Assembly (NCBI GenBank): GCA_002717225.1
Contig: PBDG01000060.1
Location: 1 to 34,749 of the forward strand
From: Rhodospirillaceae bacterium
Lineage (GTDB): Bacteria; Pseudomonadota; Alphaproteobacteria; UBA828
Length of the DNA stretch: 34,749 nt
Direction: 5' to 3'
Of the stretch, positions 6,256 through 32,475 are shown piece after piece. Positions within the stretch are counted from its first letter, which is position 1; each line of letters starts with the position of its first letter. A program made the translations under genes and the position numbers. The notes beneath the pieces are model-generated. The model was not told where the DNA came from. It saw only the letters and a program-made list of their open reading frames with translations, and did not search any database.

Positions 6256-6261
6256 TACCTC

Positions 6262-7161: not shown

Positions 7162-7163
7162 CC

Positions 7164-8183: not shown

Positions 8184-8184
8184 C

Positions 8185-9162: not shown

Positions 9163-9163
9163 C

Positions 9164-10366: not shown

Positions 10367-10369
10367 GCC

Positions 10370-13300: not shown

Positions 13301-14517
13301 ATGATATATCCTTCTCGCTCTCAACGAATGATCTATTGCATGCAGATCCAAGGAATATTGCCAAACTGCAGGTGGAATTGACCAGTGACTGTAATCTGCG
13401 CTGTACATATTGCACCCTCAGTCAGCCTTGGTATGAAGGACGTCATATGGAGGATTCAAACATTCACAAAGTAATTGAATTTACCAAGCGCCACAATATT
13501 CAGTCCGTGCATCTAAACGGCCATGGTGAAAGCACCATTGCGCCCCGATGGACGGAAATCGCACAAGAGTTCCTGAAATCAGGTTTCCATCTGACCATTA
13601 CCACAAACTTGGCCAAAAAATATACCTCTGATGAGATCGAGACCCTAGCCCAGTTTGAACAATTGGACATCAGCCTGGAAACTATTGATCTTAAGACCCT
13701 CCAACAACTGCGGCGCAAAGCTGATATCCGGCAAATATTGCACAACATTCATATGATCCGTGCAAGGGCACTGGAACTAGGATGCCCTACACCAAGAATC
13801 GTCTGGGGCAGCATCATCGCCGCTGAGACCGTCGAGCATTTCCCAAAACTCGTTGCCATGGCCATTGAATGCAGAATAAATCATTGGCATATACAATCAC
13901 TGACCAAGATGGATGAGATTGAAGGTGCCCTGAACCTGAATCCGATCCTGAGCTTGGAAGGCGAGGTCTTTCTTGAAGCCGTACAACACCTTAATGAGGC
14001 TCTATCCCTTGCGCGAAAACACCAACTCTCATTCCATTTTCAAGGCTCTATGGCGGAAGACTTGATGGCGAAGGCAAGGGAAATATTAACCTCTAGGCAA
14101 AGTCAGGCCTCTTGTAGACCGGGCGGTCCAAAAGCGATAAGGAAATCTGTTATTAAGGCCGACGACAGTTGTATGCCTGCGGACGCCATCTTATATGGTT
14201 CTGGCACCCCCAAGGGTTATACTAGAGATTGCACTGACCCTTGGTCATTCATGATGCTGGAATCCAACCAGCAAGTGTCCTGCTGCTGTTTTGGGCAAAA
14301 ACCCCTTGGCACTCTGAAATTGGGCCAGTCCATTGAGGAGGTCTTTAATGCCCCCAGAGCCAATAATCTCCGAAACAGTCTGCTAACGGGCGAGCTGGAC
14401 TCCATTTGTGCCAACTGTAGTTATCGCACACTTGTTCCCGTGGATAAATTTCACAAGAAAATCTCACATGAATTTAGAGTTACCACTAGTCTCAACGGCA
14501 ATGCACATGCGCACTGA
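13297..14517 (+). CDS. Radical SAM/SPASM-domain protein
   Basis: This 406-residue protein has the radical SAM cluster motif CX3CX2C at Cys32, Cys36 and Cys39 in LTSDCNLRCTYC. The TIM-barrel segment GHGESTIAPRW follows. The C-terminal Cys-rich region (DCTDPWSFMML, VSCCCFGQ, then SICANCSYR) matches a SPASM or twitch domain binding auxiliary 4Fe-4S clusters. Related proteins modify peptides, anaerobic sulfatases or sugars. In surface-glycan islands they often accompany methyltransferases and their substrates are largely unknown. It overlaps the 40-residue ORF by four bases. Base composition is visibly more AT-rich than in the operon upstream, suggesting separate acquisition. Confidence 0.88.
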   Translation: MNDISFSLSTNDLLHADPRNIAKLQVELTSDCNLRCTYCTLSQPWYEGRHMEDSNIHKVIEFTKRHNIQSVHLNGHGESTIAPRWTEIAQEFLKSGFHLTITTNLAKKYTSDEIETLAQFEQLDISLETIDLKTLQQLRRKADIRQILHNIHMIRARALELGCPTPRIVWGSIIAAETVEHFPKLVAMAIECRINHWHIQSLTKMDEIEGALNLNPILSLEGEVFLEAVQHLNEALSLARKHQLSFHFQGSMAEDLMAKAREILTSRQSQASCRPGGPKAIRKSVIKADDSCMPADAILYGSGTPKGYTRDCTDPWSFMMLESNQQVSCCCFGQKPLGTLKLGQSIEEVFNAPRANNLRNSLLTGELDSICANCSYRTLVPVDKFHKKISHEFRVTTSLNGNAHAH

Positions 14518-14595: not shown

Positions 14596-14951
14596 ATGAA
14601 ATTGATTTCACCCAAATCTAAGCGAACGAGGCTTGCCTGCCTCATGGTCGAAATCACCAGTAAGTGCGACCTCAGGGATCGTCACTGTACAAAGAGCATG
14701 GCTGGCATGTCTGGCCAGAATATGCAAAGTGGCTAAATATGATTAACTCTCCAGAAATATAGACCAATAGGATTCCTTCCAAGTGGGAGCGTATCACATG
14801 GCCTCTAGACAGGTAAAAAAAGATCTCATTTGACCGTGACATGTGTAAGGGCGTATTTTGCGACTTTAAGGTCTGTTACCCCAACCAACTTCTTACAGGA
14901 ACAAGCCTCCGGCAGGACGACAGGAAGGCACCAGCACAAACTGTAACATGA
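14596..14951 (+). pseudogene. Decayed radical SAM/SPASM gene
   Basis: Two fragments of a second radical SAM gene remain. From ATG 14596 a 46-codon frame reads LMVEITSKCDLRDRHCTKSM, the usual cluster region with the middle Cys lost (C-x3-D-x2-C), and stops at 14734. From 14829, in another frame, a Cys-rich tail (DMCKGVFCDFKVCYPNQ) resembles a SPASM terminus. It runs to a TGA at 14949-14951 that overlaps the rmlA ATG as ATGA. The middle of the gene, some 250 codons, is missing. It is a broken relative of the intact gene just upstream. Confidence 0.7.
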
Positions 14952-15826
14952 AAAACCGCAAAGGCATCATCCTCGCTGGCGGCACGGGCACACGTTTGCA
15001 TCCAGTGACCCTCGCGGTGTCAAAGCAATTGTTGCCTCTTTACAACAAGCCGATGATTTACTATCCCCTTTCCACCCTGATGCTGGGAGAAATGAGGGAT
15101 ATTCTAGTCATCACTACCCCGTTGGACCAACCCATGTTCCGGCGCTTGCTGGGTGAAGGAGAGGATTTCGGCATTCGCTTGACCTACGCTGTCCAGAAGG
15201 AACCGCGCGGAATCGCCCAAGCCCTCTCAATTGCGGAAGATTATCTCGACGGAGCCCCCAGTTGTCTAATTCTGGGAGACAACCTATTTTACGGGCAAGG
15301 TTTGGGCCCGCGTCTACGACAAGCAAACCACCAGTCGGAGGGCGCCACCATTTTCGTAACCCATGTCAACGACCCGGAGCATTACGGGGTGGTAGAAGTT
15401 GATGCCTTAGGCGCGCCCACATCTCTTCAGGAAAAGCCAAGGCAACCACAATCCAACCTAGCGATTACCGGCCTTTATTTTTACGATGCCCAAGCTCCCA
15501 AACTCACCCAAAAACTCAATCCGTCCCCTCGAGGTGAATTGGAAATAACGGATCTTAACCGCCTCTATCTAGACCAAAACCAACTGAATATTGAATATCT
15601 AGGACGAGGCCATTGCTGGATGGATATCGGCACTCATGACCGCTTGGCCGAAGCCGGTCAATTCGTTCGAACCATAGAAAGTCGCCAAGGCCTACACATC
15701 GGCTGCCCTGAAGAGATTGCATGGAGTCACGGATGGCTCGACCAAGCACGCATGAAAAGCGCTATTGCAGCTCATGGCGGCACTACCTACGGGAACTACC
15801 TAAAGGAACTAGTCACTAAAAAATAA
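14948..15826 (+). CDS. rmlA: Glucose-1-phosphate thymidylyltransferase RmlA
   Basis: This 292-residue protein is the full length of RmlA/RfbA. The N-terminus has GIILAGGTGTRLHPVT and the PKP-equivalent SKQLLPLYNKPMIYYPLSTL (residues about 5-45). Then come YAVQKEPRGIAQAL, LILGDNLFYG with the metal Asp, GVVEVD and EKPRQPQSN, and the C-terminal ELEITDLNRLYL with GHCWMDIGTHD. It makes dTDP-glucose from dTTP and glucose-1-phosphate, the entry step for dTDP-deoxysugars. No RmlB 4,6-dehydratase is recognisable in the window. The FdtA-like ketoisomerase (24307-23867) and the aminotransferase at 20780 can use its downstream products. Its ATG overlaps the stop of a decayed gene. Confidence 0.96.
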   Translation: MKNRKGIILAGGTGTRLHPVTLAVSKQLLPLYNKPMIYYPLSTLMLGEMRDILVITTPLDQPMFRRLLGEGEDFGIRLTYAVQKEPRGIAQALSIAEDYLDGAPSCLILGDNLFYGQGLGPRLRQANHQSEGATIFVTHVNDPEHYGVVEVDALGAPTSLQEKPRQPQSNLAITGLYFYDAQAPKLTQKLNPSPRGELEITDLNRLYLDQNQLNIEYLGRGHCWMDIGTHDRLAEAGQFVRTIESRQGLHIGCPEEIAWSHGWLDQARMKSAIAAHGGTTYGNYLKELVTKK

Positions 15827-15849: not shown

Positions 15850-16077
15850 ATGATTAATGAGTCCGAGTTAATTGATTTAGTCTCCGATGCCTTGGGGGTG
15901 AACAAAGACAGCATCCGCCCGGAATCCCAGTCGCATGAAATACCAGAATGGGATAGTCTAGGGCATTTGAGCATCCTCAGCCTCTTACAGCAAAAACTTG
16001 GTGATCGTTACCAAGAAAATCAAGAATTGGCATCAGCCACTTCCATCAAAGAGCTGCTTGAATGCCTTAACAAGTAG
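15850..16077 (+). CDS. Acyl carrier protein
   Basis: This 75-residue acidic protein has the four-helix ACP pattern. The phosphopantetheine attachment Ser is at position 36 in EWDSLGHL, and the rest of the fold (LGVNKDSIRP before it, ATSIKELLECL after it) fits. It is a specialised ACP, not the housekeeping AcpP, because the motif is DSLGH rather than DSLDTVE. It would carry acyl intermediates as a phosphopantetheine thioester. The KAS III-like gene starts five bases later, and the whole 15850-20733 block reads as one ACP-based acyl pathway. Confidence 0.92.
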   Translation: MINESELIDLVSDALGVNKDSIRPESQSHEIPEWDSLGHLSILSLLQQKLGDRYQENQELASATSIKELLECLNK

Positions 16078-16082
16078 ACACC

Positions 16083-16988
16083 GTGCGACTATTGATCACT
16101 CAAACCGCCCTAGGAAATCGGAGAATTCGAGTCGCTGATCTTTTTGACGCCCCTGACTTGATAGAAAAAACAGGTATTGAGCACGTATATGAAGCTGAAG
16201 AAAGCACCACATCCCTTGCCGTCAAAGCATGCCGTAAAATCCCGAACCTCCAAGCCCGCCCCATCAAACTTTGTTTGATGGTCACTCAACCCCCAGACGA
16301 TTTCCTGCCCGCCAATGCCATTGACTTGGCAAATCAAGTCGGCCTTCCCTCTAATATCATTGCCTTCGATTTAAATCAGGGCTGCTCCGGCTTTGTGCAA
16401 GCTCTCTGTCTGGTTGAAAGACTGCTAGACTACTACAGTGAGACTTTACTTGTGACAGCAGACAGATACAGGAGCAAACTGGATCAAGCGGACCGTTCGA
16501 CCAACTCCGTGTTCAGTGATGCCGCCACCGCAACCGTCTGCGCAACGGACAACAGACTCGGCATTATTTACGAAGACCACTACACGGACGGAGCCAAGCG
16601 CAACCTACTGTTCCAGTCTGCCAGCAAGGAAGACAACAACGGGCATCTGCACATGTCCGGCGCAGAGATTTGGATGTTCACACGCCTGCAAGTCGTCCCG
16701 CAAATTCAAAAGGCAATCCAATACTGCGAGGAAAATGACCTCAAGATCGGGGGGGTATACCTGCACCAAGCCAGTCGCATCGTGGTTCACGGTATAAAAA
16801 AATTCCTGCCTGTGGACAAAAGTATTGTTTTCGAAAATTACCACATCCACGGCAACACAGTCTCCTCAACTATCCCTTTCCTACTGAAAGAGCACCCGCT
16901 AGATGAATCGGGTGGCACAACGGTGAGCATTCTGGCCGGGTTTGGCGTTGGCCTTACTTCTTCAGTAATTGTGTATGGAGAAAAATGA
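16083..16988 (+). CDS. 3-oxoacyl-ACP synthase III-like ketosynthase
   Basis: This 301-residue thiolase-fold protein starts with GTG and is FabH-like. The active-site triad is present: Cys101 in DLNQGCSGFVQAL, His228 in LHQASRIV and Asn258 in HIHGNTVSS. The C-terminal GFGVGLTSSVIVY is typical. KAS III enzymes condense an acyl-CoA starter with malonyl-ACP to form 3-oxoacyl-ACP. It is a little shorter than FabH (about 320), mostly at the N-terminus. Placed between an ACP and a reductase-like SDR, it probably starts the synthesis of a short acyl chain. Similar ACP/KAS III/reductase sets occur in Pseudomonas flagellin glycosylation islands, from general knowledge. Confidence 0.92.
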   Translation: MRLLITQTALGNRRIRVADLFDAPDLIEKTGIEHVYEAEESTTSLAVKACRKIPNLQARPIKLCLMVTQPPDDFLPANAIDLANQVGLPSNIIAFDLNQGCSGFVQALCLVERLLDYYSETLLVTADRYRSKLDQADRSTNSVFSDAATATVCATDNRLGIIYEDHYTDGAKRNLLFQSASKEDNNGHLHMSGAEIWMFTRLQVVPQIQKAIQYCEENDLKIGGVYLHQASRIVVHGIKKFLPVDKSIVFENYHIHGNTVSSTIPFLLKEHPLDESGGTTVSILAGFGVGLTSSVIVYGEK

Positions 16989-17665
16989 GTAATTTATTCA
17001 TAGTTTATGGCTCAGAGACAAAGCTCCTACAGGGAATCCTGAATACTCAAGACTCTCAATTTATCCGAATCTACCACAACCGGATCCCTCAAGCGCAAGC
17101 AAACGCAATAGACGTCAACAATTTCGACGCGTTCAAGCTTGCCTTGGACAAACAGGTTGCCGACAATAATGTAGAAAGGATAATCTTTATAGGAGCTGCA
17201 TTTCTTGTTCAAAACAACCTTTTCATTTCCGAAAAGTGGTGCGAAATCGAAGATATGATAGAAACGAATGTCTCCAGCTATGTGAAATATAGCCATTACC
17301 TGTTGCCCTATATGCTAAAAATTCGATCAGGCAATTTCATCTACTTGAGTTCATTTAGGGCCAATGTTTTGGGACGAGGGACAAGTGTTTATTCAGCATC
17401 AAAGGCTTTTGGGGAAAAATTCTTCGAAGGCATAGGCAAAGAGTACGGAAATTGCGGTATTTATTCGGCATCCATTAGACTTGGTTGCTTTGATGGCAGA
17501 ATGTTTGATGCTTTAGGAGAGGATCAGAAGAATAAGTGGATTTTATCCATAGGAAATCGCAGATTAGGAACGGCTGATGACTTGGTCAAAACGATCCATT
17601 TTGTTCTTGCCAATGAATACACAAATGGCGGCGTTATTGAGTTGACGGGGGGAATAAGTTTCTGA
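16985..17665 (+). CDS. Short-chain dehydrogenase (FabG-like), degenerate cofactor loop
   Basis: This 226-residue SDR overlaps the ketosynthase by ATGA. The catalytic set is visible: Asn95 in IETNVSS, Ser122/123 in YLSSFRA, Tyr136 and Lys140 in VYSASKAF. The C-terminal GGVIELTGGISF matches FabG endings. By context it would reduce the 3-oxoacyl-ACP to 3-hydroxyacyl-ACP. The N-terminal glycine-rich TGxxxGxG loop is not conserved: the sequence there is IVYGSETKLLQG. Nucleotide binding may therefore be altered, or the protein may have a divergent role. Composition is AT-rich compared with most genes in the window. Confidence 0.85.
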   Translation: MSNLFIVYGSETKLLQGILNTQDSQFIRIYHNRIPQAQANAIDVNNFDAFKLALDKQVADNNVERIIFIGAAFLVQNNLFISEKWCEIEDMIETNVSSYVKYSHYLLPYMLKIRSGNFIYLSSFRANVLGRGTSVYSASKAFGEKFFEGIGKEYGNCGIYSASIRLGCFDGRMFDALGEDQKNKWILSIGNRRLGTADDLVKTIHFVLANEYTNGGVIELTGGISF

Positions 17666-17672
17666 AGCAACC

Positions 17673-18269
17673 ATGATTGCACCAGCAAAACAGAATAAGC
17701 TTGAGCAACTATTCAAAGCCAACCCCATTAAAGGCCGATTCTGCCAACTACATCACGTTGCCACAAGCGATGCACAATTCATTTATGACTTGCGTACAAG
17801 CAGAGGGCAGCACCTCAAGCCCATCGGAGAAACTGTTGCAGAACAGAAGGCATATCTGCGTAGTTACCATGGGCGGTTTGCAAAACGTGAAGAAATCTAT
17901 TTCAAGATTTTTGATATCAAGAATGGAAGTTTCTCAGGCGTTACACGCCTAACGATGCTTCAAGATCAAGAATCTTTCAACTTTGAAAGTGGGGTAATGG
18001 ATAAGAATGCGAATCCTAATGTATATCTGGATGCGATGTTCATGTGCTATCGGATTGGATTCGATTTTCTCGGCAAAAAATCATCAGGACCGTGGACTGT
18101 CGACAAAGGCAACACCCGAATGATCCAATTACACAAACTTGTGAACATTGGCAAAGTTACTGGGGAGAAAGGGCAATTTTGTATCTTACACGCAAAAAAG
18201 GCCGACTATCACAATCGTTGTGGTGGATTTCTGAAAATGGGATTCGGGAAACTAGGAGGGCTATTATAG
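17673..18269 (+). CDS. GNAT-type acyltransferase
   Basis: This 198-residue protein looks like a GNAT-fold N-acyltransferase. It has an early ATSDAQFIYDLRTS helix, the central strand pair FSGVTRLTML and FNFESGVM, and a later helix region DAMFMCYRIGFDFLG with NTRMIQLHKLVNIGK. No exact Q/RxxGxG/A loop is obvious, so acyl-CoA binding may be unusual or the donor may be acyl-ACP. Placed inside an ACP/KAS/SDR/MaoC set and near a sugar aminotransferase, it is the best candidate to N-acylate an amino sugar with the pathway's product. That role is inference. It lies seven bases after the SDR and one base before the dioxygenase gene. Confidence 0.7.
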   Translation: MIAPAKQNKLEQLFKANPIKGRFCQLHHVATSDAQFIYDLRTSRGQHLKPIGETVAEQKAYLRSYHGRFAKREEIYFKIFDIKNGSFSGVTRLTMLQDQESFNFESGVMDKNANPNVYLDAMFMCYRIGFDFLGKKSSGPWTVDKGNTRMIQLHKLVNIGKVTGEKGQFCILHAKKADYHNRCGGFLKMGFGKLGGLL

Positions 18270-18270
18270 C

Positions 18271-19077
18271 ATGAGGAATACTGAGGAACTTAGAAAGTCG
18301 CTTTTAGACAACGGCTTTGTCCACGTTAAAGGCTTCATGACTGATGCCAACCTTAAACTGCTGGACAGTGCCATTTCGGAAGTTACCTCAAACCCAAGCC
18401 CATTCAAAATCGTTAAGAATAATGAACAAGGTTGCTTTTTCATGGATTTCAACAACTGGAGAAGGATGCCAGTCGTGGAAGAATTGTGCAAGTTACCTAG
18501 ACTGGTTGATCTGGTTACAAAGCTTACAAACTCCGAAAAATGCTGGTTGATGCATGAGGATGTGGTAGTCAAGTCTGGCTGCCACGGAGCACCAACACCA
18601 ATACACCACGACCGGCCATATTTTATCTTCAAGGGCGACTTAAACTTGTCTGTCTGGATGACTGCAGAGGATGTCGCTCGCAACTCAAGCCTCACCTGTT
18701 ACCGGGGAACCCATCTATTAAACAACCTGTTTTTGCCCAAGGTCTTCAAGACAGGATCCGATGCGAGCGAGTACCCTGAACTAGACAAAGGTGAGTATGA
18801 AGTTATACGGGATAATACCTTCGCCCATAACGAACTGGTTGACTTCGAACTGAAAGCCGGCGATGTCGTTGTTTTTTTTCACAAGACGATTCACGGATCA
18901 CATCCGCATTCTTCTCCTGTCTCTCGAAGATCTCTGGTGGTGAGATATTTGCTGGATGGGGCTAGGTTGACCAAGAAATATTTCAACAACGTCCCTCCCT
19001 ATGAAAAGATGGGCGTTAACATCAAGGAAGACGCTCCCGTTCCAGAAGAATTTTTCCCACTTTTAACCAAGGATTGA
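18271..19077 (+). CDS. Phytanoyl-CoA dioxygenase-family Fe(II)/2-oxoglutarate oxygenase
   Basis: This 268-residue PhyH-like protein has the iron-binding facial triad: His112 and Asp114 in IHHDRPYF and distal His208 in HKTIHGSHPH. The 2-oxoglutarate-binding Arg is in SRRSLVVRY (about 219-225). These enzymes hydroxylate aliphatic carbons using O2 and 2-oxoglutarate. In this operon it could hydroxylate the acyl chain on ACP or on the sugar, producing a branched or hydroxylated acyl decoration. It lies one base after the GNAT gene, and the CCR gene begins six bases after its stop. Confidence 0.88.
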   Translation: MRNTEELRKSLLDNGFVHVKGFMTDANLKLLDSAISEVTSNPSPFKIVKNNEQGCFFMDFNNWRRMPVVEELCKLPRLVDLVTKLTNSEKCWLMHEDVVVKSGCHGAPTPIHHDRPYFIFKGDLNLSVWMTAEDVARNSSLTCYRGTHLLNNLFLPKVFKTGSDASEYPELDKGEYEVIRDNTFAHNELVDFELKAGDVVVFFHKTIHGSHPHSSPVSRRSLVVRYLLDGARLTKKYFNNVPPYEKMGVNIKEDAPVPEEFFPLLTKD

Positions 19078-19082
19078 AAGTC

Positions 19083-20261
19083 ATGTGGGCATATGGCATT
19101 GGCAAAGAAGCCGTTGCAGAGCTTCAGAAAGCCCCCCTAGAAGAAAGAAGACCTTCTAGGGGCATCAAGAGACTTGAGGTGCCCACCCCGGAACCCAAAG
19201 ATGATGAAGTGTTAGTGAAGGTTAAATCAAGCGCGCTGAACTATAATTCAATTTGGAGCGGCTTGTGCCATCCATTGTCTCCTTTTCAGCTGATCAACAG
19301 GCATGTCTCACGCAACATACAGTGTGATGACCATGCCCAAGATTATGCAATTTTTGGAAGTGATGCCAGTGGGGTTGTAGTCAAGGCGGGCAAAAATGTC
19401 ATGGGCTGGAACCAAGGGGACGAGGTTATTATTCACTGCAACGTAATTAACACCGATGAACCCGTGGCCCAAATCGATGGCATGGTTGCAGACAGCCAGT
19501 CTATCTGGGGTTATGAAACAAATTTTGGGGCCTTTGCAGAATTTTGCAAAGTAAAGGCTTCGCAGTTGATTCGGAAACCTAATGATGTTTCTTGGAAGGT
19601 CGCCGGGTGTTTTTGCCTTACCCTGTCAACGGCATACCGCATGTTAATCTCACCAAACGGTGCCTCTTTAAGGCCTGGCCAGAATTGCCTTATTTGGGGT
19701 GCGGCAGGAGGGCTCGGCAACTTTGCCATCCAACTGGCCCGGTTGACCGGAGCCAATCCTATCGCTGTGGTATCGAGTGATGAGAAGGAAGAGATCTGCC
19801 GGAATCTCGGCGCGACCGCGGTCATCAATAGAAGCAAGGACAACTTTGGCGATTTCATCCTAAAAAATGGCGAGCCTAATTACTTAGCATGGCGTAACGC
19901 AAAACTAACATTGGAGAAAAAAGGGGTTAAAGATTTGCATGTGGTGTTTGAGCACGTAGGGAAGGAGACCATAGGTGTCTCATTGTTTCTGCTTTCACGT
20001 GGAGGGACTGTCGTCACCTGCGCGGCGAGCAGTGGTTACAACGCAGTGGTCGACTTGAGATACCTCTGGATGAATCTCAAAAAAATCATCGGAAGTCACT
20101 GTGCAAATTATTACGAAGCGGAACAAGCTGCCAATCTGGTGTTTAACAACCAAGTCACACCACTGATCCATTCGATTCAGTCCATTCACGCGCTGCCCGA
20201 CGCAGCGGATGCGATGCACTCAAACTCCACGTATGGAAAAACTGTATTCCTGCATGACTAA
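19083..20261 (+). CDS. Crotonyl-CoA carboxylase/reductase family protein
   Basis: This is a 392-residue zinc-free MDR reductase of the CCR type. It has SALNYNSIW, FGSDASGVVVKAGKNV and WGYETNFGAFAEF. The NADP motif LIWGAAGGLGNFAIQLARL lies near residues 203-220, followed by VVSSDEKEEICRNLGA, and DLRYLWMNLKKIIGSHCAN comes near the C-terminus. Known CCRs reductively carboxylate crotonyl-CoA with NADPH and CO2. The CO2-pocket Asn (ALNYN), Glu145 and His339 look conserved, while the usual Phe is Tyr144. The likely role is enoyl reduction, with or without carboxylation, of the acyl intermediate. ATG 19083 is preferred over TTG 19074 because AAGGA lies nine bases ahead. It is shorter than typical CCRs (about 420-450). 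Confidence 0.88.
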   Translation: MWAYGIGKEAVAELQKAPLEERRPSRGIKRLEVPTPEPKDDEVLVKVKSSALNYNSIWSGLCHPLSPFQLINRHVSRNIQCDDHAQDYAIFGSDASGVVVKAGKNVMGWNQGDEVIIHCNVINTDEPVAQIDGMVADSQSIWGYETNFGAFAEFCKVKASQLIRKPNDVSWKVAGCFCLTLSTAYRMLISPNGASLRPGQNCLIWGAAGGLGNFAIQLARLTGANPIAVVSSDEKEEICRNLGATAVINRSKDNFGDFILKNGEPNYLAWRNAKLTLEKKGVKDLHVVFEHVGKETIGVSLFLLSRGGTVVTCAASSGYNAVVDLRYLWMNLKKIIGSHCANYYEAEQAANLVFNNQVTPLIHSIQSIHALPDAADAMHSNSTYGKTVFLHD

Positions 20262-20733
20262 CGCATCTCGAGATTCCCACAACGGCCTGATTGGAACCCC
20301 TCATTGTTTCAAAGGAAAAAAATTTGAGAACATCTCCGTTGGGGAAACAGGAGAGTTTACTCTAGTTTACAAAGAGGAGTTCATTGGATTGTTTGCTGCA
20401 CTATCAGGCGACTACAACCCCGTACACATGGATAAGGACTTTGCACATCAATCTGTATTCAGGGGCAGGATCGGTCATGGCATGTGGTGTGCAGCATTGT
20501 TGTCAGGCGCAGTGGCGTCGGTACTGCCTGGGCCGGGGACAATTTATAGGAGCCAAACCATCAAGTTCCTGAACCCCATCAGAATCAATGATGAATTAAC
20601 TGCACGTCTTAAAGTGGAGAGGAAAAACAACAAGACAAGGCTTATCGCGATGAGTTGTACCGTGGTAAATCAGCGGCGTGAAAAGATCGCGACGGGAATG
20701 GCAGAGGTAATTGCACCGACCATGCCAGGCTAG
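20254..20733 (+). CDS. MaoC-family (R)-specific enoyl hydratase/dehydratase
   Basis: This 159-residue hot-dog-fold protein has the (R)-hydratase signature. The catalytic Asp53 and His58 lie in LSGDYNPVHMDKDFA, followed by GRIGHGMWCAALLSGAV. C-terminal NPIRINDELTARLKV matches MaoC/PhaJ proteins. It would dehydrate (R)-3-hydroxyacyl-ACP or -CoA to the trans-2-enoyl form, supplying the CCR-like reductase encoded just upstream. ATG 20254 is chosen because it overlaps the CCR stop by eight bases and gives the family length. An in-frame ATG at 20209 would cause a 53-base overlap. Confidence 0.9.
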   Translation: MTNASRDSHNGLIGTPHCFKGKKFENISVGETGEFTLVYKEEFIGLFAALSGDYNPVHMDKDFAHQSVFRGRIGHGMWCAALLSGAVASVLPGPGTIYRSQTIKFLNPIRINDELTARLKVERKNNKTRLIAMSCTVVNQRREKIATGMAEVIAPTMPG

Positions 20734-20779: not shown

Positions 20780-21874
20780 ATGGAAATTCCATTTTACGAT
20801 TTGGGAAAGCTGCACAAGGGGATGCGCGGAGAACTAGAAACAGCTTTTCAGCGTGTGATCGACTCCGGGGTTTATGTGCTCGGTAACGAGGTGGAAGCCT
20901 TTGAGGCTGAGTTTGCCGATTACTGCGGGGTCAAGCACTGCATTGGCGTGGGAAGCGGCCTCAGCGCACTGCACCTGACCTTGGTTGCCATTGGCATTGG
21001 CAGAGGCGATGAGGTAATAGTGCCGGCCCATACCTTCATTGCCACTTGGCTGGCAGTAAGCGAGACGGGGGCAAAGCCCGTGCCCGTGGAGCCCGACGCC
21101 GCCACTTACAACATCAATCCTCACTTGATAGAGGACGCCATCACACCAAGAACCAAGGCCATAATTCCGGTGCACCTATATGGCCAACCGGCTGACATGG
21201 ATGCCATCAGCTTGCTTGCCCGGCAGCATGGCCTCAAGGTTATCGAAGACGCTGCTCAAGCACATGGTGCCCGCTACAAGGGTAAGCGCACTGGAGGGCT
21301 CGCGGATGCGGCGGGGTTTAGTTTTTATCCCGGCAAAAACCTGGGGGCATTGGGGGACGGTGGCGCAGTGACAACGCAGGATGATACCTTGGCCGACAGA
21401 GTGCGCCATCTGCGGAATTATGGTTCGCGGAAGAAATATCATCACGAAATCCGAGGTCATAATTCCCGACTGGATGAATTGCAGGCAGCCTTGCTGCGAG
21501 TGAAACTCAAGCATTTGGAACGGTGGCAGGCCCGCCGTTTAGCAATCAGCAGAGTCTACGTGCAAGGGTTGAAGGCATCCCCCTTAGTCTTGCCGGAGGT
21601 GCTAAGCTCGACAGAACCATCTTGGCACTTGTTCGTTGTGTGCTGCCACCAGCGAGACCAATTTCGCAAAAAGCTGGAGGTTGATGGCATTCAAACGGCA
21701 GTCCATTACCCAAAGCCACCCCATCTACAACCAGCGTATCGAGGTGCCGTTCCCGAGGGTTTTCCCGTGACGGAAGCGATTCACAAAACGGTTGTCAGTC
21801 TCCCCATGGGGCCTGCCATGGACGACCAACAGGCCGAGCGGGTGGTGCAATCCTGCCTCAATGCTTTGGATTGA
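20780..21874 (+). CDS. dTDP-3-amino-sugar aminotransferase (FdtB/QdtB-like)
   Basis: This 364-residue DegT/DnrJ/EryC1 aminotransferase is of the FdtB/QdtB/TylB branch: it starts [40 protein letters not shown] binds PLP phosphate, [11 protein letters not shown] supplies the ring Asp, and the PLP lysine is Lys186 in [14 protein letters not shown]. The family adds an amino group at C3 of dTDP-3-keto-6-deoxyhexoses with L-glutamate. Its partner, an FdtA-like 3,4-ketoisomerase, is encoded on the other strand (24307-23867). ATG 20780 is preferred: upstream in-frame TTG/ATG codons would add a non-homologous Arg-rich leader. It ends the plus-strand operon and converges with the GT61 gene. Confidence 0.92.
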
Positions 21875-21905: not shown

Positions 21906-23870
21906 TCATGCTAACGAATACCGAGCTTCATTGGCTACTTGAATGAGCCGAGCAACATTCTCCAGCGGGACATAATATCGTTTGTGGCAGGAGTCGAGGT
22001 GATACTCCTCAGCCCCGGCGATGATCTGTTTCCACGAGGATTCCTGCGCCGTGGGGACAAATGATCCGACGGCGATGGCATATTGCAGTCCGTACAAGTG
22101 ACAAGTGTAATTATGCATGGGGCCATAGTAATCTGAAGGAACTATCATGGCTACATGTGCCCCAGGTTGGCAAAAGATCAAGTTGCCGCCCCACGCCCCC
22201 GCGGGACCGGCAATGCTGGCAGCGGAAGAAAAGGTCAGCACTTGCTCTTCAAAGGTCATAGCTTGGGGATGAATGACCTCGTAGCCTGCCCCTTCATAGA
22301 CATTACGGATCTCCACCTCATTGACCAAGCTACGGACGCCCATTTTTTCACGAGAAACATATAACTTGCGGTGGGGTGCAACCGGCTGGATCTCTAGGCG
22401 CTCCCAAAGCTTTTGGCGCAGTTTCAGCAACTCCCCGGCACAGGGGACTTCATCACGGCAGGAGATGAAATAATCGGCTTGGTCAAATTTCACCGGAAAT
22501 TCACCATCATATTCCAGTCGAGATTCCGCGGACACCCCCAGACAATCCAGAATCGTTCTTTGCCATGGTTCCAAAGTATAAGGAAAGAACAAGGGGTTTA
22601 TGGATTGCCAGCCCCCAGAGTGCTCAGCAGCCATTAGAATATTTGGCAAAATGTTGAGCATCCACGTGAAGTAGTTTGTGCCCGCCAGTCCATAGGTGAC
22701 GATGGAGCAGGCGGGCCCCTCCCAGTGGTGTGGAGTAGGTAATTGAGCCAAAGCCTTGGTGGCATCCGCAAACTCGATGTGCGGCCAGTGGCTTCGGTAA
22801 TGTGGGTTTTCGGGCATCGACTCCCGAACGAGGCTTTGATCACGCGACATGATCAAGCTGTAGGAATCTAGTAGTTGGACATCTTTCAATTCCGCAAACC
22901 TTGAGGAAGGAGTGGAAAATATTTCCTGTTGTCTATTCTCACCCTCAGCCGTCACAAACGAGAATTCCAGTTCCACGGTCCTTGCAGGTTCAATTTCTTG
23001 AATTTGATATTTATTTGCACAGCAGATTTCCTCCAAGCCATGAATCTGGCACACCAAAATTTCTGGTTTGGCACTCGATAACTTCGTAGCTTTTTCGATC
23101 AGGGCTTTGGCCCCATCGCTATCGCCCGAGGCAACTTTCTCTTTGAGAGCAACGCGGACTTCCTTGAATTCACTTGTCAAGGTGATCATCTTGGAATGCT
23201 CGGCCCGCTCTTTGTCCCCCTGTCGTAGCCATACCTTTCGCTCAAATGCGAGCGCTGGATGCGCGGGAGACTTTTGGCGTAACAGGTCACATGTATCCAA
23301 AACGCGCTGGTCCTCCCCCAACAGGAATGAAGTCTCCGCGCACAAGGCCAAAAAATTTGCATCTGCCTGTGCTCGGTTTTCAGGGTCCAAACGGTCCAAG
23401 AAACCAATGGTCGTGTCCATTTCCCTGAGTGTGCCGCAGTCAAATACGCGCGATGTTTGCCCCGGAGGAATTGGCAATTCCATAAGGTGACCTTCGCGAA
23501 TATAGTTTTTCCAACGCTCGTCCCCCTTGTGCTGCACAAGACGCATACCCACCAAGAGCTTGGTGGCAAACAGTTGTTCCTCTGGGTGAGTTTGGTCTGA
23601 AGCACATTTTTCTAGATGATAATGGGCTCGTCTAAAAAACCCGTAATCCGCCAAGGCCAAGCCCCAAAGGGAGTGGGGCACGGTGCCTACAGGTAACTCC
23701 TTGGTGGCTTGGTCCAAAAAATGTTCTGCGTCCTCAATGCGCCCCTCGGAGACTAGTTCATAGGCTTGGATGGCCTTTAGATTAGCCCATCCATTCAGCT
23801 TCAATCCTTTGCTAGTCTGAAGGGCCAGAATGGCTTCCTTTCTTATCTGTAGCTCCTCCCTGGTGATCAT
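21906..23870 (-). CDS. GT61-type (DUF563) glycosyltransferase with N-terminal TPR-like region
   Basis: This 654-residue protein has two parts. Residues about 1-290 are helical and TPR-like (AIQAYELVSEGRIEDAEHFL, then LWGLALADYGFFRRAHYHLE). Residues about 330-640 match the GT61/DUF563 glycosyltransferase fold, with KLYVSREKMGVRSLVNEVEI, GYEVIHPQAMTFEEQVLTF and AASIAGPAGAWGGNLIFCQPG. Bacterial GT61 proteins transfer sugars in capsule or LPS synthesis, and TPR fusions occur in O-linked protein glycosylation. The usual His in the GxHGAG motif is Ala here. Its ATG overlaps the stop of the ketoisomerase gene by ATGA. No transmembrane segment or signal peptide is seen, so it is probably cytoplasmic. 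Confidence 0.85.
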   Translation of the reverse strand: MITREELQIRKEAILALQTSKGLKLNGWANLKAIQAYELVSEGRIEDAEHFLDQATKELPVGTVPHSLWGLALADYGFFRRAHYHLEKCASDQTHPEEQLFATKLLVGMRLVQHKGDERWKNYIREGHLMELPIPPGQTSRVFDCGTLREMDTTIGFLDRLDPENRAQADANFLALCAETSFLLGEDQRVLDTCDLLRQKSPAHPALAFERKVWLRQGDKERAEHSKMITLTSEFKEVRVALKEKVASGDSDGAKALIEKATKLSSAKPEILVCQIHGLEEICCANKYQIQEIEPARTVELEFSFVTAEGENRQQEIFSTPSSRFAELKDVQLLDSYSLIMSRDQSLVRESMPENPHYRSHWPHIEFADATKALAQLPTPHHWEGPACSIVTYGLAGTNYFTWMLNILPNILMAAEHSGGWQSINPLFFPYTLEPWQRTILDCLGVSAESRLEYDGEFPVKFDQADYFISCRDEVPCAGELLKLRQKLWERLEIQPVAPHRKLYVSREKMGVRSLVNEVEIRNVYEGAGYEVIHPQAMTFEEQVLTFSSAASIAGPAGAWGGNLIFCQPGAHVAMIVPSDYYGPMHNYTCHLYGLQYAIAVGSFVPTAQESSWKQIIAGAEEYHLDSCHKRYYVPLENVARLIQVANEARYSLA

Positions 23871-24307
23871 GCCATGCCTTCCTCTCCGGCTTGTCCAGCC
23901 TTAGAAAGGAATTCTTGATAATCCGTGACGTAGTCCGCGGGATCATATTTTTCCGATGCCAAGACGAGGATCACGCAATCGGGAGATATCCTAGTCATTT
24001 GCCGCCACACTAGGCCCGTCAGCAAGACGCCGCGCTCAGGCCGATCCAGCACGACAGACTCTCGAGTAGTGCCATCGTCCAGATCCAATTGAAACGAGCC
24101 CGCAACACTGAGGAATAACTGGCTTAAGTTCTGGTGAGCATGGCCTCCCCTTTGGACTCCGGGACCGGGCACATGGTAAATGTAGTAGATGCGCTTGATG
24201 TCAAATGGAACGTCATGGGCTGACTCAGCGAAGGACAAATATCCTCTGCTTGCATCCCCCTTGCACTCTAGTTCCAGCCATGAACAACCTTGAACTGCCA
24301 GACTCAT
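23867..24307 (-). CDS. dTDP-sugar 3,4-ketoisomerase (FdtA/WxcM-like cupin)
   Basis: This 146-residue single-domain cupin is of the WxcM/FdtA/QdtA type. The active-site pair is His56 and His58 in VQRGGHAHQNLSQLFLSVAG, preceded by IKRIYYIYHVPGPGVQR. The family converts dTDP-4-keto-6-deoxyglucose to the 3-keto isomer, setting up C3 amination by an FdtB-type enzyme such as the one at 20780. ATG 24307 is taken in preference to GTG 24313 as the better codon. It sits 86 bases after the epimerase stop, and the GT61 gene is coupled to it by ATGA. Confidence 0.93.
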   Translation of the reverse strand: MSLAVQGCSWLELECKGDASRGYLSFAESAHDVPFDIKRIYYIYHVPGPGVQRGGHAHQNLSQLFLSVAGSFQLDLDDGTTRESVVLDRPERGVLLTGLVWRQMTRISPDCVILVLASEKYDPADYVTDYQEFLSKAGQAGEEGMA

Positions 24308-24393
24308 TGGCACTTGCGAAGTTTAAACCTTGCAAGCTTGTATTCAAACCAATTTGACGCGGGCCACTCCCATGACAAACCTAGGCCGACTAC

Positions 24394-27204: not shown

Positions 27205-27231
27205 GTGACAATCGACAATAATACTATCAGT

Positions 27232-30200
27232 ATGACAGTCAAGCAGCACAAGGATGTGAAGACTCCGTTCATTTCTGTGGTCGTTCCCACACGCAATCGC
27301 GCGGAATTGTTGACCCAAAGCGCCTTGCCCACGGTATTGCAGCAAACGTTTGAAGATTTTGAACTGGTAATTTGTGACAATGCCTCCAGCGATGACACCG
27401 AAGAGCGGGTCATGGCGTTGAAGGATAACAGGATAAAATTTTTCCGGTCGGAAGAATGGATTCCCAAGGAGGATTTTTTCCAATGGTCGCTTGAGAGGGC
27501 CACGGGAGAGTACAGCATGTTGTTTTTCGATGATGATGCTTTGTGTCGGCGAGCCTTGGAAAAATGCCATGCGATCCTGAGGGAAAAACCGGTTGAAGCT
27601 CTGACGTTCGCTCGAAGCTTGGTGTATCATTTTCCCAACTGGCACGCCCCCAAGTACCGCAACGTCCTTTCCATCCCGCAGTTTTCTAAGAAGGCCTTTT
27701 TGATTGATTCACGCCGTCATCTAGAAAGGGTGTATCAACATATGGACATCCTCGGGGAAACGCCAATGGTGACCAATGCGCTGTACCGCTCTTCGTTTAT
27801 CAAGGATTTAGCAGATCAACACGGAAGGCTGTTCCCACATGGACACATGGGGGATTACAATGTGGCATGTTGGATTCTTAATTATACCAAGGAATTTGTG
27901 TATTTGGATGACCCGATCGCGGTGTTTGGGCACTGGAAAGAAAACACATCCGCGCAACTGCATGATTTTCAGACGACAATGCCTGAATATCAGGAGTGGA
28001 TTGACTGGATAACAGCTGAACATCTATCGAAGATGCCATGGACCCAATACATTTGGCCTAATTGCGTCGCCGCCGCCCTAGAAGATATGAACCGTCAACT
28101 GGGGATGAATATCGAGGTCGATCCAGTACAATATTGGTTTGAAATGTTCCGTGAAATTAAAAGAGTGGCTGCAGCAGGCGGAAATGCCGACCATTTAGTG
28201 GAAGATTTGGAGCTTACATTAAAAGAAAAAGCATCCACGCAAGTGGTGAAGAAGGTGATGGAAGCCGTACGTGACGGCAACACACTTGCCAAAATTAGCG
28301 ACCAAATCCGGACTTTGGATTACCAAGATCCCAACCAAGCGTACCCCAACGATCGTTCAATCTTAGGTAAACAGTTTCTTCACAAAACGGGCAAACTCAA
28401 CGGTTTCAATGATGTCTCCGGGGCCTGCAAGTTTTTTGAGTGCATCAGCGGGGAAGAAAACTTGTTGGATAAGCGCACCCGACGGGAGAAAAATCGTTCA
28501 AAATCCACCTGCACCAAAGAAGCAGGATTGTGTTTCAATGGAGAAACAAAAGATTTGCCTGGCAAAGGCGACTATCCGGCATTGATCCGCCAGACTTCAC
28601 GCGAAGACTGGCGACATTGGGCAGCAGAAGCCTTGATTGGAAAAACTGACAATGCAATCAAGGAACTCGCTGAAATTGATGGGCCCGAAGCACGATTCTA
28701 TTTGGGGGTGGCACACTGGATGGCAGGACAAGATAGGGAAGCACTGGCGGTTTTGCGGAAAGTGGACACGGAGCATGCGCGAAATTTAGCCTCCTTGATC
28801 GCCAAGCCCAAGCTCCGCGTATTAGCTCAAACTGATTGGTTTCCGGAGGATATCACAGATGAAAAATTTGCGGTTCAGTTCATGGGGATCCGCCGCAAGG
28901 AACTTGGGCCGCGTGGATTTGGAATCCCAACCGCAGACATGCCGTTGGAAGCGTTTGAAAATATCACGCATTTTGCGAATACGGAACCCGCCGATTTTTA
29001 TTTTGCGCACATGGTGGAATGGGAATTGTTACCTCGTGATTTACCGGAACTTGAATGTCCCAAGATTGCTGTCACTTCGGATGTAGATTGGCACGCGCAG
29101 GAACTGTATCCATGGCTGCCTGTGTTTGATGAAGTGGTGGCAACTGGATCTGAAGAACGGAGCGAAACGTTGAAACTGGATCCAAAAGGGTCGGTTTCGG
29201 TTTTCCCAAAGGTATTTGGCTTGCGAGACCAACTGCTTCCGGAACTGCCAGGCTGTGAACGGGAAGTGAACCTCTTCGTGTCTGGCTCTTACGTCGGTCC
29301 CTTCCATGAGGACAAAGCCCAACTGATCCGGCAATTGCTTGATAGCAATTTAGACCGAATCCGCTATGTAGACGGATACATGGACTTGGGCGATTATTTT
29401 AATGAGAATGGCCAAGCTAAGGCTGTCTTCACATATGTTCGGCAGCATCCTGGCACCATGCCCACCCGCGGGCTAGAGGCTCTGGCTATGGGTTGCGCTG
29501 TTGTAACCCAAAAGGATTGCTCTCTTTCCCTCTATTACGGGAGTCAAGACGGGGTATTTTCTTATGAAAAAGACAAGCAAGACTTGGCGGCGCAAATCCA
29601 TCGAATTTCAGACCACTGGGAAGAGTTGGGGCAGCGCCTACAGAAAACAGCCAAGACCGTGCGCCAAGAATTCAACTTGTCCCGCTGCACTTCACAGTTC
29701 CTAAGATACGCCACGGTGCTGGCAGCAAAGCCTCGCGCGCGCCGCAAAAAACCAACCACGCGCCACCTAATGGTTGCCAAACGCCATTTTTCCGAACGAG
29801 GGCATCCGCAATCCCTGCCTGCTGCCAACCTCATGCTCCAGCATAACTGGAGATGTTGGGAAGAGGATTACCGCCGACATGGGGATCCTGGCAGCCTCAT
29901 AAACATGGGGCGGGAGTTGGATTTGTTCCTGAATGCGGACATGGGCCGTTTGCAGAAATTAAAAGACAATTGGCAAATTCAAAACTGGCAGAAAACACGC
30001 CGGAGAATGCTCAAACAAGTGGAGTCCGTCTATGGGTTCGGCATTAGGACACACCCAAAAAGATTGGTACTGCTGTTTAATGCCCTGCGCCATGCGTTTC
30101 ATATTGGTAACTCTTCACAAGTACCACATGCCATAAACATGGCTGAATCACTCCTTGAAAAACGGGATTCTTACTGGGAAATCAACCTCTTGGACGATGT

Positions 30201-32475
30201 GTTTCCCTGGGACTATATGAGTGCTTATTTCAACTTCCGAAAATACTCGGAAACCGTCTTTGATGGGCTGACGTCGGGCAATGATCGCCAAAGTGACTTG
30301 GTCCGGCTGATCCGCGCCTCAATACACTATTACTTAGGCCACTTAAAGGGTGGCATGGATCACTTTGAAAAAGCAGTGGAATTGGATCCGGATTTTCCTT
30401 ACTACCGATACTATCTGGCCATGGCCTTGTTGGATGCTGGCGGTAAAGATGAATTAACCAGAGCTGCCAACTTGCTGGAGGATCTGGCACGCGACTCCAT
30501 AATGATGGAGACTGCATTCAATTGCTTGGCCGGATTGCATGAACGAAAAGTTTATTCCTCACCATTGATAAATCAAATGGCCCGTCAAATGCGCCGTCTC
30601 AAACGGTTCCGAATGGATGCCTTTGGTTCATCGGGGGAGTTTGAGACCATCGACCTTGTCCTGCCCCCTGGAACAAAAGCCCTGCCCACACAACAAATAA
30701 TTAAACGCCAAGCTTCCTCTCTGCGGCACACGGAGCACTCTTCACATTGTGTAAATGTGGGAAGAGTGGGAGAGAGCAAAAAAATTCTGCTGATTCCGTT
30801 TGAACTGGCAAACTGGAAGAATGGGCGGGCTTGGTCCTATACAGGTAATTTCGGGTTTGAAGAAGGGCTGACCGCTAATGGGATCGACTGCACGGTGATG
30901 CCAGCCATCGCCGGTCTGCATTCAGATGACCAAGCTTCTTGGCTCGATTATGCCGCTCTACTGTTTAAGGACAAGAAATTCGACCAAGTGTGGATTTGGA
31001 TCACACACAATAACTATACCCCGGAATTCTTTGCTTGGCTGAAAACCATAGCCCCCGTGCGAGTGGGCATAGTGATGGAATCCATGGAACACACCCCCCA
31101 GGAACTCAAGGAAATGGCCAAGGTGGGGGAACGCAAACTAAAGGTACTGAGAGAACTGCGGCACATGACCCATGTGGTGACATATGATGACGCCGACGCC
31201 AACATGTTCGATCGGGAACTAGGAAAGCCCGCGCTGTGGTGCCCCATATTTGTGCCTTGGCACAACGTAACCGAAAAAATCAAACTCCCCAGTCCCGGAC
31301 CAGGGGTTTTTCTTGGCTCTACATACAATGCAGAACGGCAAGCTTATTTGGATTATGACAATCTCAAGGATTATTTGGTGAGTCCAGAATTGCCAGAAAG
31401 CCATACACGTTGGCCAGCCCAATTCGACCAGCTCCAAGCCAATTGCCTACACTTCCTAAAAACCACCTCCACGCTGGGTGTCGGTGACTTTAACAATTAT
31501 GTAATTCTTCTGCGAGCCATCCGCCGGGAATTGTTCAATTTATGGCTTGAAGGATTACAACTGGGTTATACTACGGTAAACCTACCTTCCATCTGCAAGT
31601 TTTATCCGGGGCGTGTTGTGGAAAGCATGGCAGCAGGGCGGCCTGTAATCACCCCTCAACCTAAAGGGAAGGCCATGCAGCAACTCTTCGAACCCGGGCG
31701 GGAAATCTTGTGGTACGATCGGAATCGGCCAAGCACATTACGGGATCAAATTAAGTTCCTACATCAACATCCTGAGCAGGCCCAAGCCATGGCGGAACGG
31801 GCACGGGACAAGGTGTTGAAATACCACACTGCTGAAATCCGCGCACGCCAGATTCTGGACTGGATTGAGTCTGGAGCTCAACCCAACTTTGGCTTGGGAG
31901 CCGTGCCGCAGAACACTGCGCTGTCCGACCCGGCTGAGACCAGCATAGAAAAGAAACCTATGGCCTCGACGGCGGACCAAATGGATCCCCATCCATCAAT
32001 GGAAAATCCTCTCGAGGCACTCAAGACCAAGGCACATGAATATTACCAACAGGGCCAGCTTGAAAAGGCCAAGTTAACATACCAACAACTAACTGATATG
32101 CTGCCCGATGAACCAGCAGTGTGGGTGGAACTGGCAACTGTGTGCCTGCAAAGCAAGGACGGGGGTGGATTTGAAAAGGCTCTTAATCACGCTCTCCAAT
32201 TGGATCCCACGGACTTTGAAGCACGAAGACTACTGGCACATGCTAATTTCATGGGTGGGAAGTATGTCGATGCTTGCGGATTGTACGCCGGGCTGGTCAA
32301 GGAACAGCCGGAGGATTTGGAGCTCACTCTGGCCTTCGGTGCGGCGAATTTTCATACCCGCTCCTTCCATGATGCCGTTGGCGCTTTTGAGCAGGCCTTG
32401 GTACTGGATCCCAGCAATCAGGTCGCCCGCGACAACCTCAAGGCTGCGCGTGAAGCCAGCGAAGCCTTGGTGTAA
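27232..32475 (+). CDS. Giant multidomain glycosyltransferase (GT2, two GT-B, TPR)
   Basis: This is a 1747-residue protein. The N-terminal GT2 (GT-A) domain starts FISVVVPTRNRAELL and has the metal motif FFDDDA at Asp100-102. A first GT-B/CgeB-like domain runs from about 528 to 835 (LRVLAQTDWFPED to a late GLEALAMGCAVV). A helical and TPR-like stretch covers about 840-1110 (GHLKGGMDHFEKAVELDP). A second GT-B domain covers about 1183-1547 (KILLIPFELANWKNGRAW, then FYPGRVVESMAAGRPVI). C-terminal TPRs fill about 1590-1740. No signal peptide or transmembrane segment is evident. It may build several linkages of one glycan, with TPRs binding the acceptor protein, plausibly flagellin. An in-frame GTG at 27205 is rejected because it abuts the promoter. 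Confidence 0.9.
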   Translation: MTVKQHKDVKTPFISVVVPTRNRAELLTQSALPTVLQQTFEDFELVICDNASSDDTEERVMALKDNRIKFFRSEEWIPKEDFFQWSLERATGEYSMLFFDDDALCRRALEKCHAILREKPVEALTFARSLVYHFPNWHAPKYRNVLSIPQFSKKAFLIDSRRHLERVYQHMDILGETPMVTNALYRSSFIKDLADQHGRLFPHGHMGDYNVACWILNYTKEFVYLDDPIAVFGHWKENTSAQLHDFQTTMPEYQEWIDWITAEHLSKMPWTQYIWPNCVAAALEDMNRQLGMNIEVDPVQYWFEMFREIKRVAAAGGNADHLVEDLELTLKEKASTQVVKKVMEAVRDGNTLAKISDQIRTLDYQDPNQAYPNDRSILGKQFLHKTGKLNGFNDVSGACKFFECISGEENLLDKRTRREKNRSKSTCTKEAGLCFNGETKDLPGKGDYPALIRQTSREDWRHWAAEALIGKTDNAIKELAEIDGPEARFYLGVAHWMAGQDREALAVLRKVDTEHARNLASLIAKPKLRVLAQTDWFPEDITDEKFAVQFMGIRRKELGPRGFGIPTADMPLEAFENITHFANTEPADFYFAHMVEWELLPRDLPELECPKIAVTSDVDWHAQELYPWLPVFDEVVATGSEERSETLKLDPKGSVSVFPKVFGLRDQLLPELPGCEREVNLFVSGSYVGPFHEDKAQLIRQLLDSNLDRIRYVDGYMDLGDYFNENGQAKAVFTYVRQHPGTMPTRGLEALAMGCAVVTQKDCSLSLYYGSQDGVFSYEKDKQDLAAQIHRISDHWEELGQRLQKTAKTVRQEFNLSRCTSQFLRYATVLAAKPRARRKKPTTRHLMVAKRHFSERGHPQSLPAANLMLQHNWRCWEEDYRRHGDPGSLINMGRELDLFLNADMGRLQKLKDNWQIQNWQKTRRRMLKQVESVYGFGIRTHPKRLVLLFNALRHAFHIGNSSQVPHAINMAESLLEKRDSYWEINLLDDVFPWDYMSAYFNFRKYSETVFDGLTSGNDRQSDLVRLIRASIHYYLGHLKGGMDHFEKAVELDPDFPYYRYYLAMALLDAGGKDELTRAANLLEDLARDSIMMETAFNCLAGLHERKVYSSPLINQMARQMRRLKRFRMDAFGSSGEFETIDLVLPPGTKALPTQQIIKRQASSLRHTEHSSHCVNVGRVGESKKILLIPFELANWKNGRAWSYTGNFGFEEGLTANGIDCTVMPAIAGLHSDDQASWLDYAALLFKDKKFDQVWIWITHNNYTPEFFAWLKTIAPVRVGIVMESMEHTPQELKEMAKVGERKLKVLRELRHMTHVVTYDDADANMFDRELGKPALWCPIFVPWHNVTEKIKLPSPGPGVFLGSTYNAERQAYLDYDNLKDYLVSPELPESHTRWPAQFDQLQANCLHFLKTTSTLGVGDFNNYVILLRAIRRELFNLWLEGLQLGYTTVNLPSICKFYPGRVVESMAAGRPVITPQPKGKAMQQLFEPGREILWYDRNRPSTLRDQIKFLHQHPEQAQAMAERARDKVLKYHTAEIRARQILDWIESGAQPNFGLGAVPQNTALSDPAETSIEKKPMASTADQMDPHPSMENPLEALKTKAHEYYQQGQLEKAKLTYQQLTDMLPDEPAVWVELATVCLQSKDGGGFEKALNHALQLDPTDFEARRLLAHANFMGGKYVDACGLYAGLVKEQPEDLELTLAFGAANFHTRSFHDAVGAFEQALVLDPSNQVARDNLKAAREASEALV

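Follow-up and report, generated by a model that had tools for sequence, protein, structure and literature searches.

The contig PBDG01000060.1 (assembly GCA_002717225.1, binned as a Rhodospirillaceae bacterium), whose whole length of 34,749 bp is called the window here, carries seven acyl genes at 15850-20733, all on the + strand, which are packed into one tight operon, with rmlA before it and the gene of a C3-aminotransferase after it. I will argue that this operon encodes a dedicated pathway for the N-acyl group on a 3-amino sugar of a flagellin glycan, a reading to which I give a probability of about 0.6 and which leaves its carboxylation step open. That step would belong to a homologue of crotonyl-coenzyme A (CoA) carboxylase/reductase (CCR), encoded next to a predicted PhyH-family Fe(II)/2-oxoglutarate (2OG) hydroxylase. 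The known viosamine-type acyl sets for flagellin end at the 3-hydroxyacyl stage; the set in the window adds a dehydratase, the CCR homologue and the Fe/2OG hydroxylase. Should this be true, the chemistry of bacterial glycan substituents would be extended, CCR would have a role beyond the ethylmalonyl-CoA pathway and polyketide supply, and CO2 fixation would serve to give the flagellum acyl decorations that carry a negative charge.

The operon and its proposed product

The open reading frames (ORFs) of all seven genes were confirmed, and the intergenic spacing from rmlA through to the MaoC gene runs 23, 5, -4, 7, 1, -4 and -8 bp, taking the MaoC start as 20254 (M16), which is probably the true start rather than the longest-ORF start at 20209. 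An earlier note, made from the letters of this DNA, had described seven tightly packed genes, and ORFs, families and spacing all agree with that description. The whole set recurs in a second assembly, within a 16.3-kb stretch that is 99.6% identical (L045, contig CAJWSN010000010 of the metagenome-assembled genome (MAG) 'uncultured Opitutae bacterium ERR599156_bin.207'), so the gene set is no assembly artefact. The genes are as follows.

15850..16077, + strand: acyl carrier protein (ACP), 75 aa; phosphopantetheine serine S36 in DSLGH
16083..16988, + strand: beta-ketoacyl-ACP synthase III (KASIII), 301 aa; PF08545/PF08541; triad C101/H228/N258; best PDB match 3gwa, a KASIII
16985..17665, + strand: short-chain dehydrogenase/reductase (SDR), probable 3-ketoacyl-ACP reductase, 226 aa; PF00106/PF13561, FabG-like
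17673..18269, + strand: FdhC-like sugar N-acyltransferase (GNAT fold predicted), 198 aa; PDB 5kta match
18271..19077, + strand: predicted PhyH-family Fe(II)/2OG hydroxylase, 268 aa; PF05721 2.2e-17; human PhyH 2a1x, E 1.6e-5
19074..20261, + strand: CCR homologue, 395 aa; TIGR01751; TTG start; 4-bp overlap with the PhyH gene
20254..20733, + strand: MaoC-type (R)-specific enoyl hydratase or hydroxyacyl dehydratase; PF01575 1.6e-22; motif SGDYNPVH

Pfam and NCBIfam searches identify the KASIII, SDR, PhyH, CCR and MaoC proteins, and return no match for the ACP or the 198-aa protein. The ACP call rests on the DSL motif together with gene position; the 198-aa protein, which the earlier note had named a GNAT acyltransferase, keeps that function through homology to FdhC (PDB 5kta, E 1.1e-8 over 154 residues, 20-173), with the family match missing.

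On the proposed route, RmlA, a 4,6-dehydratase encoded elsewhere, an FdtA/QdtA-type isomerase and a QdtB-type aminotransferase would supply the amino sugar activated with thymidine diphosphate (dTDP). KASIII would join a short acyl-CoA to malonyl carried by the dedicated ACP, after which the SDR would convert the product to a 3-hydroxyacyl group, MaoC would dehydrate this to the enoyl, and CCR would reduce the enoyl, most likely with capture of CO2, to a 2-alkylmalonyl (ethylmalonyl-like) thioester, whose chain PhyH would hydroxylate before the FdhC-like GNAT moved the acyl group onto the 3-amino group and glycosyltransferases carried the sugar to flagellin. I infer the substrates and the order of the steps, as well as ACP instead of CoA as the carrier and carboxylation instead of plain reduction. 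The most specific version of the proposal, in which a CCR-type reductive carboxylase works on a carrier-bound enoyl and the resulting acyl group, carboxylated as an alkylmalonyl and probably hydroxylated too, ends in amide linkage to the 3-amino sugar of the flagellin glycan, is tentative, a possibility rather than an expectation.

The probable sugar acceptor

Three genes near the operon point to the sugar.

14948..15826, + strand: RmlA, glucose-1-phosphate thymidylyltransferase; TIGR01207 420.7 bits, over cut-off; 23 bp before the ACP gene
20780..21874, + strand: DegT-family nucleotide-sugar C3-aminotransferase, QdtB/DesV type; PDB 2oga (DesV) E 1.8e-131, 3frk (QdtB) 4.1e-120; start probably at 20780, not at the longest-ORF start 20738
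23867..24313, - strand: FdtA/QdtA-type sugar 3,4-ketoisomerase; PF05523; PDB 5tpu, 7n67, 2pa7, 4o9e

RmlA, an FdtA/QdtA isomerase, a QdtB-type aminotransferase and an FdhC-like GNAT are together the hallmark of dTDP-3-(acylamino)-3,6-dideoxyhexose synthesis, and four of the five enzymes of the dTDP-3-amino-3,6-dideoxyhexose (Fdt/Qdt) pathway (RmlA, ketoisomerase, C3 aminotransferase and N-acyltransferase) lie on the contig, without RmlB. Since the aminotransferase is closest to the C3 enzymes DesV and QdtB and an FdtA/QdtA gene is present, with no VioA-type C4 amination, the acceptor is very probably a dTDP-activated 3-amino-3,6-dideoxyhexose rather than viosamine, most likely of the 3-amino-3-deoxyquinovose (Qui3N) or 3-amino-3-deoxyfucose (Fuc3N) type. 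The same partnership recurs on plasmids of Tritonibacter mobilis and Sulfitobacter, where relatives of the GNAT (30-31% identity) stand beside FdtA/QdtA genes (44%) and DegT genes whose products are 52-55% identical to the window's aminotransferase; in Tritonibacter a GT61 glycosyltransferase gene adjoins the GNAT relative as well. FdhC of Acinetobacter nosocomialis, the homologue in PDB 5kta, is a GNAT-fold sugar N-acyltransferase that moves 3-hydroxybutyryl from acyl-CoA onto dTDP-Fuc3N, whereas the window's GNAT adjoins a dedicated ACP pathway. An AlphaFold model of this GNAT from a two-row alignment is not usable (predicted local distance difference test, pLDDT, 38).

Comparison with known flagellin islands

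The closest precedent is the viosamine island (vioA, vioM, vioT, vioS, vioB, vioR and acp of Pseudomonas syringae, orfA-N of P. aeruginosa PAK), which shares the dedicated KASIII, ketoreductase, ACP and acyltransferase and likewise supplies flagellin with a dideoxy amino sugar in N-acylated form; KASIII, SDR, ACP and sugar acyltransferase stand in one operon in the window too. In P. syringae, vioS, vioR, acp and vioB produce 3-hydroxybutanoyl-viosamine on flagellin (PMC3927599), so the Pseudomonas ACP/KASIII/reductase sets to which the earlier note appealed are real, and its remark that CCR and PhyH fall outside that scheme holds, neither being part of this set. The viosamine island has no dehydratase, enoyl reductase/carboxylase or oxygenase, whereas the window set has all three; its amino group is placed at C4 by VioA, not at C3 by FdtA/QdtA and a QdtB-type enzyme; and VioB is described as a viosamine acetyltransferase (PMC3927599), whereas the window's acyltransferase is FdhC-like. 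The note's interpretation is borne out in part: its central idea, a dedicated acyl pathway leading to an amino-sugar N-acyltransferase in an island headed by flagellin, is supported, with the probable acceptor sharpened to a 3-amino-3,6-dideoxyhexose.

Comparable KASIII/ACP/SDR sets adjoin flagellin in Burkholderia glumae and Azospirillum. The 25-kb B. glumae plasmid pBGF3, whose KASIII is the best plasmid match to that of the window (33%), has a flagellin-linked acyl set (L049, 11911-16794) that ends in an oxygenase, as the window set has one, so an oxygenase next to such a set is not unique. It differs in having a Rieske protein instead of PhyH and the C4 aminotransferase VioA, and in lacking CCR and MaoC. 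The order on pBGF3 is flagellin, FliD, FliT, TPR, VioA, KASIII, ACP, a second KASIII-like ORF, SDR, acyltransferase and Rieske oxygenase. Flagellin islands of Aeromonas and Enterobacteriaceae encode ACP, FabG, CaiC, LuxE and LuxC, and one encodes FabZ (PMC7874193, PMC4875605); they share the presence of fatty-acid-synthesis type genes, with acyl-CoA reductase and ligase types in place of a KASIII-CCR-PhyH set, which is not described for them. Literature searches that paired flagellin glycosylation with CCR or PhyH found nothing relevant.

A core and an added block

One other genome with the module was found in the scan of genome contigs, in which query-derived patterns were used, so that more distant clusters may have escaped. 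This genome, the unrelated MAG 'Alphaproteobacteria bacterium RIFCSPLOWO2_01_FULL_40_26' (L046), has ACP, KASIII, SDR and GNAT genes in the same order (56, 65, 57 and 49% identity) within a polysaccharide locus, and PhyH, CCR and MaoC are all absent from it, as is flagellin. The four genes ACP-KASIII-SDR-GNAT are therefore separable and fit the viosamine scheme of KASIII, ketoreductase, ACP and acyltransferase, with PhyH-CCR-MaoC as a separate contiguous block which, judged by gene content, is an addition to the core. When other genomes are asked for the gene order, then, the answer is divided: the core has an independent counterpart, and the full order of seven occurs in the one near-identical contig. 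The two arrangements offer a natural comparison, as a 3-hydroxyacyl sugar would be expected from the core by itself and a saturated or carboxylated one from the core with the block.

Searches with KASIII through a phylum sample for the window's bin (G000), the class Opitutae and the order to which G762 belongs brought no further cluster; the KASIII proteins that they matched were generic or in other contexts (1e-25 to 1e-37). Viral contigs scanned with KASIII, CCR, PhyH and GNAT gave no match, nor did phage records searched with the GNAT. Because the binning of the window is doubtful, the searches among relatives of G000 were likely mis-centred, and they were repeated around the Opitutae bin that holds the second copy (G761).

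CCR and PhyH

The CCR homologue scores 417.5 bits against TIGR01751 (cut-off 378.55), matches CCRs in the PDB down to E 1e-95 with homology over its full length, and has 41% identical residues over the aligned stretch with the Ccr of Kitasatospora setae, in which N81, F170, E171 and H365 bind CO2 (PMC10966969; numbering in the PDB chain is that of the paper plus 2). At these positions the window's protein has N58, Y147, E148 and H342, and the tyrosine is usual at the F170 position in some 30 sampled alphaproteobacterial CCRs. It thus shares the CO2-pocket residues with the known CCRs (those of K. setae, the ethylmalonyl-CoA pathway and polyketide extender supply), from which it differs in its sugar-acylation operon, a shorter N-terminus and Cys343, the residue after the pocket histidine, where crotonyl-type enzymes usually have phenylalanine. 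By alignment offset the Cys343 site corresponds to V350 of AntE, where a V350G change widened the substrate range (PMC6164871); two CCRs from polyketide or peptide clusters (L015, L064) have glycine at this site together with an Ile-to-Ala change upstream.

In the tree the protein forms a long branch grouped with polyketide-type CCRs (support 95/88) and outside the clade of alphaproteobacterial ethylmalonyl-CoA pathway CCRs, and this join is tentative, as long branches meet there. At 1e-60 no CCR was found in 275 other genomes from the class to which the Opitutae bin belongs, so CCR is there no class-wide gene of primary metabolism. That CO2 is incorporated, whether as a final group or by way of an extender, I consider a close call that tips slightly towards yes.

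Seven related CCR homologues from the nominal order of the window's bin (L002, L009-L014; 34-38% identical to the window's CCR), one of them encoded within that bin itself, have glutamine for the pocket glutamate (GYQT), and this clade may perhaps consist of CO2-independent enoyl reductases.

PhyH has the metal ligands H112-x-D114 and H208 and a 2OG-binding arginine, R219 or R220, which is the pattern of hydroxylases and not the HxA/G of halogenases. It is less than 30% identical to anything found, plasmid relatives (two loci read, identity likewise below 30%) had no informative neighbour genes, and a single-sequence AlphaFold model is not interpretable (pLDDT 36). From its place in the operon it probably acts on the acyl chain.

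Weighing the alternatives

Several points weigh against the pathway as I have drawn it. A distance of 14 kb, which includes another sugar pathway, separates the flagellins from the acyl genes; the full order of seven genes is confined to the window and one near-identical contig, that is, to the level of a species; neither bin has an RmlB over cut-off (both are incomplete, the MAG being 87% complete); the SDR keeps S122, Y136 and K140 with its usual TGxxxGxG nucleotide motif degenerate, as it also is in the L046 orthologue; CCRs and PhaJ-like MaoC proteins classically take CoA esters, where ACP is proposed as the carrier; and the CCR homologue could serve as a plain enoyl reductase, its CO2 pocket being a relic.

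The last of these can be made into an account of its own, since CCRs also reduce without CO2: the enzyme would be a trans-enoyl reductase and nothing more, and its product, a short saturated chain such as butyryl, would be turned by PhyH into, for example, 2- or 4-hydroxybutyryl, with no CO2 fixed. The fatty-acid cycle of the operon is complete but for a dedicated enoyl reductase, a slot that CCR fills, and cysteine for phenylalanine after the pocket histidine means an altered pocket, but all four CO2-pocket positions are retained despite the long branch while related proteins have lost the glutamate, and I regard this outcome as unlikely. Less probable still is that MaoC and CCR make an extender, taking 3-hydroxyacyl-CoA through enoyl-CoA to alkylmalonyl-CoA, which KASIII would condense with loss of CO2 and the SDR would reduce to a branched 2-alkyl-3-hydroxyacyl group. 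The grouping of CCR with polyketide-type enzymes, which are established extender suppliers, would suit this, as would the PhaJ-like character of MaoC (a CoA-level family) and a Streptomyces polyketide cluster (L062) that has CCR, KASIII and a 3-hydroxyacyl-CoA dehydrogenase; yet the window's cluster has no acyltransferase to load the extender onto ACP and leaves PhyH no clear role, KASIII enzymes normally take malonyl-ACP, and the clade join is one between long branches.

Flagellin is, from the gene neighbourhood, probably the final acceptor. The acylated sugar might instead be destined for another surface glycan such as O-antigen or capsule, the flagellins being incidental, for the L046 core sits among polysaccharide genes, the Sulfitobacter GNAT-FdtA-DegT trio is found among exopolysaccharide genes, and flagellar genes are absent from the window's 3' half; two flagellins nevertheless head an almost unbroken row of sugar genes on the same contig, and the B. 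glumae and Azospirillum sets adjoin flagellin, so I would not expect this destination. It is also doubtful, if a little easier to entertain, that PhyH works on a sugar or another substrate of the island and that MaoC and CCR alone extend the acyl pathway: PhyH substrates are very varied and this PhyH is distant from all others found, but its gene lies inside the PhyH-CCR-MaoC block, overlaps that of CCR and is missing from the L046 core jointly with the other two. The preferred reading remains the dedicated pathway for a 3-amino sugar of flagellin.

Neighbouring genes and host

The remaining features of the window include the flagellins and the further sugar genes.

96-680: second flagellin, 5'-truncated by the contig end
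1029..1850, + strand: flagellin, 273 aa; PF00669/PF00700
21906..23870, - strand: GT61 glycosyltransferase, 654 aa; PF04577
24394-25419, - strand: UXS-like protein; closer to uridine diphosphate (UDP)-glucuronate decarboxylases than to RmlB; STSEVYG
27205..32475, + strand: multi-domain glycosyltransferase with TPR repeats, 1756 aa; PF13524, PF00535, PF00534 and TPR families

The 1756-aa glycosyltransferase is a candidate for the enzyme that transfers the glycan to flagellin. The gene at 24394-25419 was at first taken for RmlB, an assignment rejected on its greater nearness to the decarboxylases; it overlaps a nucleotide-sugar dehydrogenase gene, and the pair, which together spans 24394-26773 on the - strand, likely forms a branch from UDP-glucuronate to UDP-xylose or a 4-keto-pentose.

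The host of these genes is not settled, and the contig is likely mis-binned in G000. FlhA was found neither in this bin nor in two near-complete relatives (98-100%), and flagellin had no match in 21 relatives from the bin's order, whereas a full FlhA is encoded in the Opitutae bin that contains the second copy. The tetranucleotide signatures are mixed, 1-12 kb being slightly closer to G000 and 12-34.7 kb closer to G761, and GC (guanine plus cytosine) content and tetranucleotide signature both shift at about 12 kb. L045 departs abruptly (at its position 845) from the window at 10671, within a B12/radical-SAM gene. Chimerism of the window at this point was weighed, but the B12-binding domain (residues 25-151) runs on unbroken across 10671 in the window, while in L045 the start of a TPR lipoprotein is fused midway into the B12 domain; the fault or rearrangement, a chimera or a deletion, more likely lies in L045 than in the window.

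Between the flagellins and the acyl genes, at 2081-11983, stands a further sugar pathway whose GC is high (about 0.60), with an L-2-hydroxyglutarate oxidase homologue (PRK11728, 540 bits), an epimerase, an HddC/HddA-like nucleotidyltransferase and kinase (GHMP), a split transketolase, a 2-hydroxyacid dehydrogenase, a DegT protein and the B12/radical-SAM protein. The part upstream of the acyl genes also encodes a methyltransferase and a radical-SAM/SPASM protein, and between the radical-SAM gene and rmlA lies the remnant of a second radical-SAM gene (14632-14739), which has stops downstream and is 41.7% identical to residues 21-56 of the protein encoded at 13297-14517 (E 7.6e-6).

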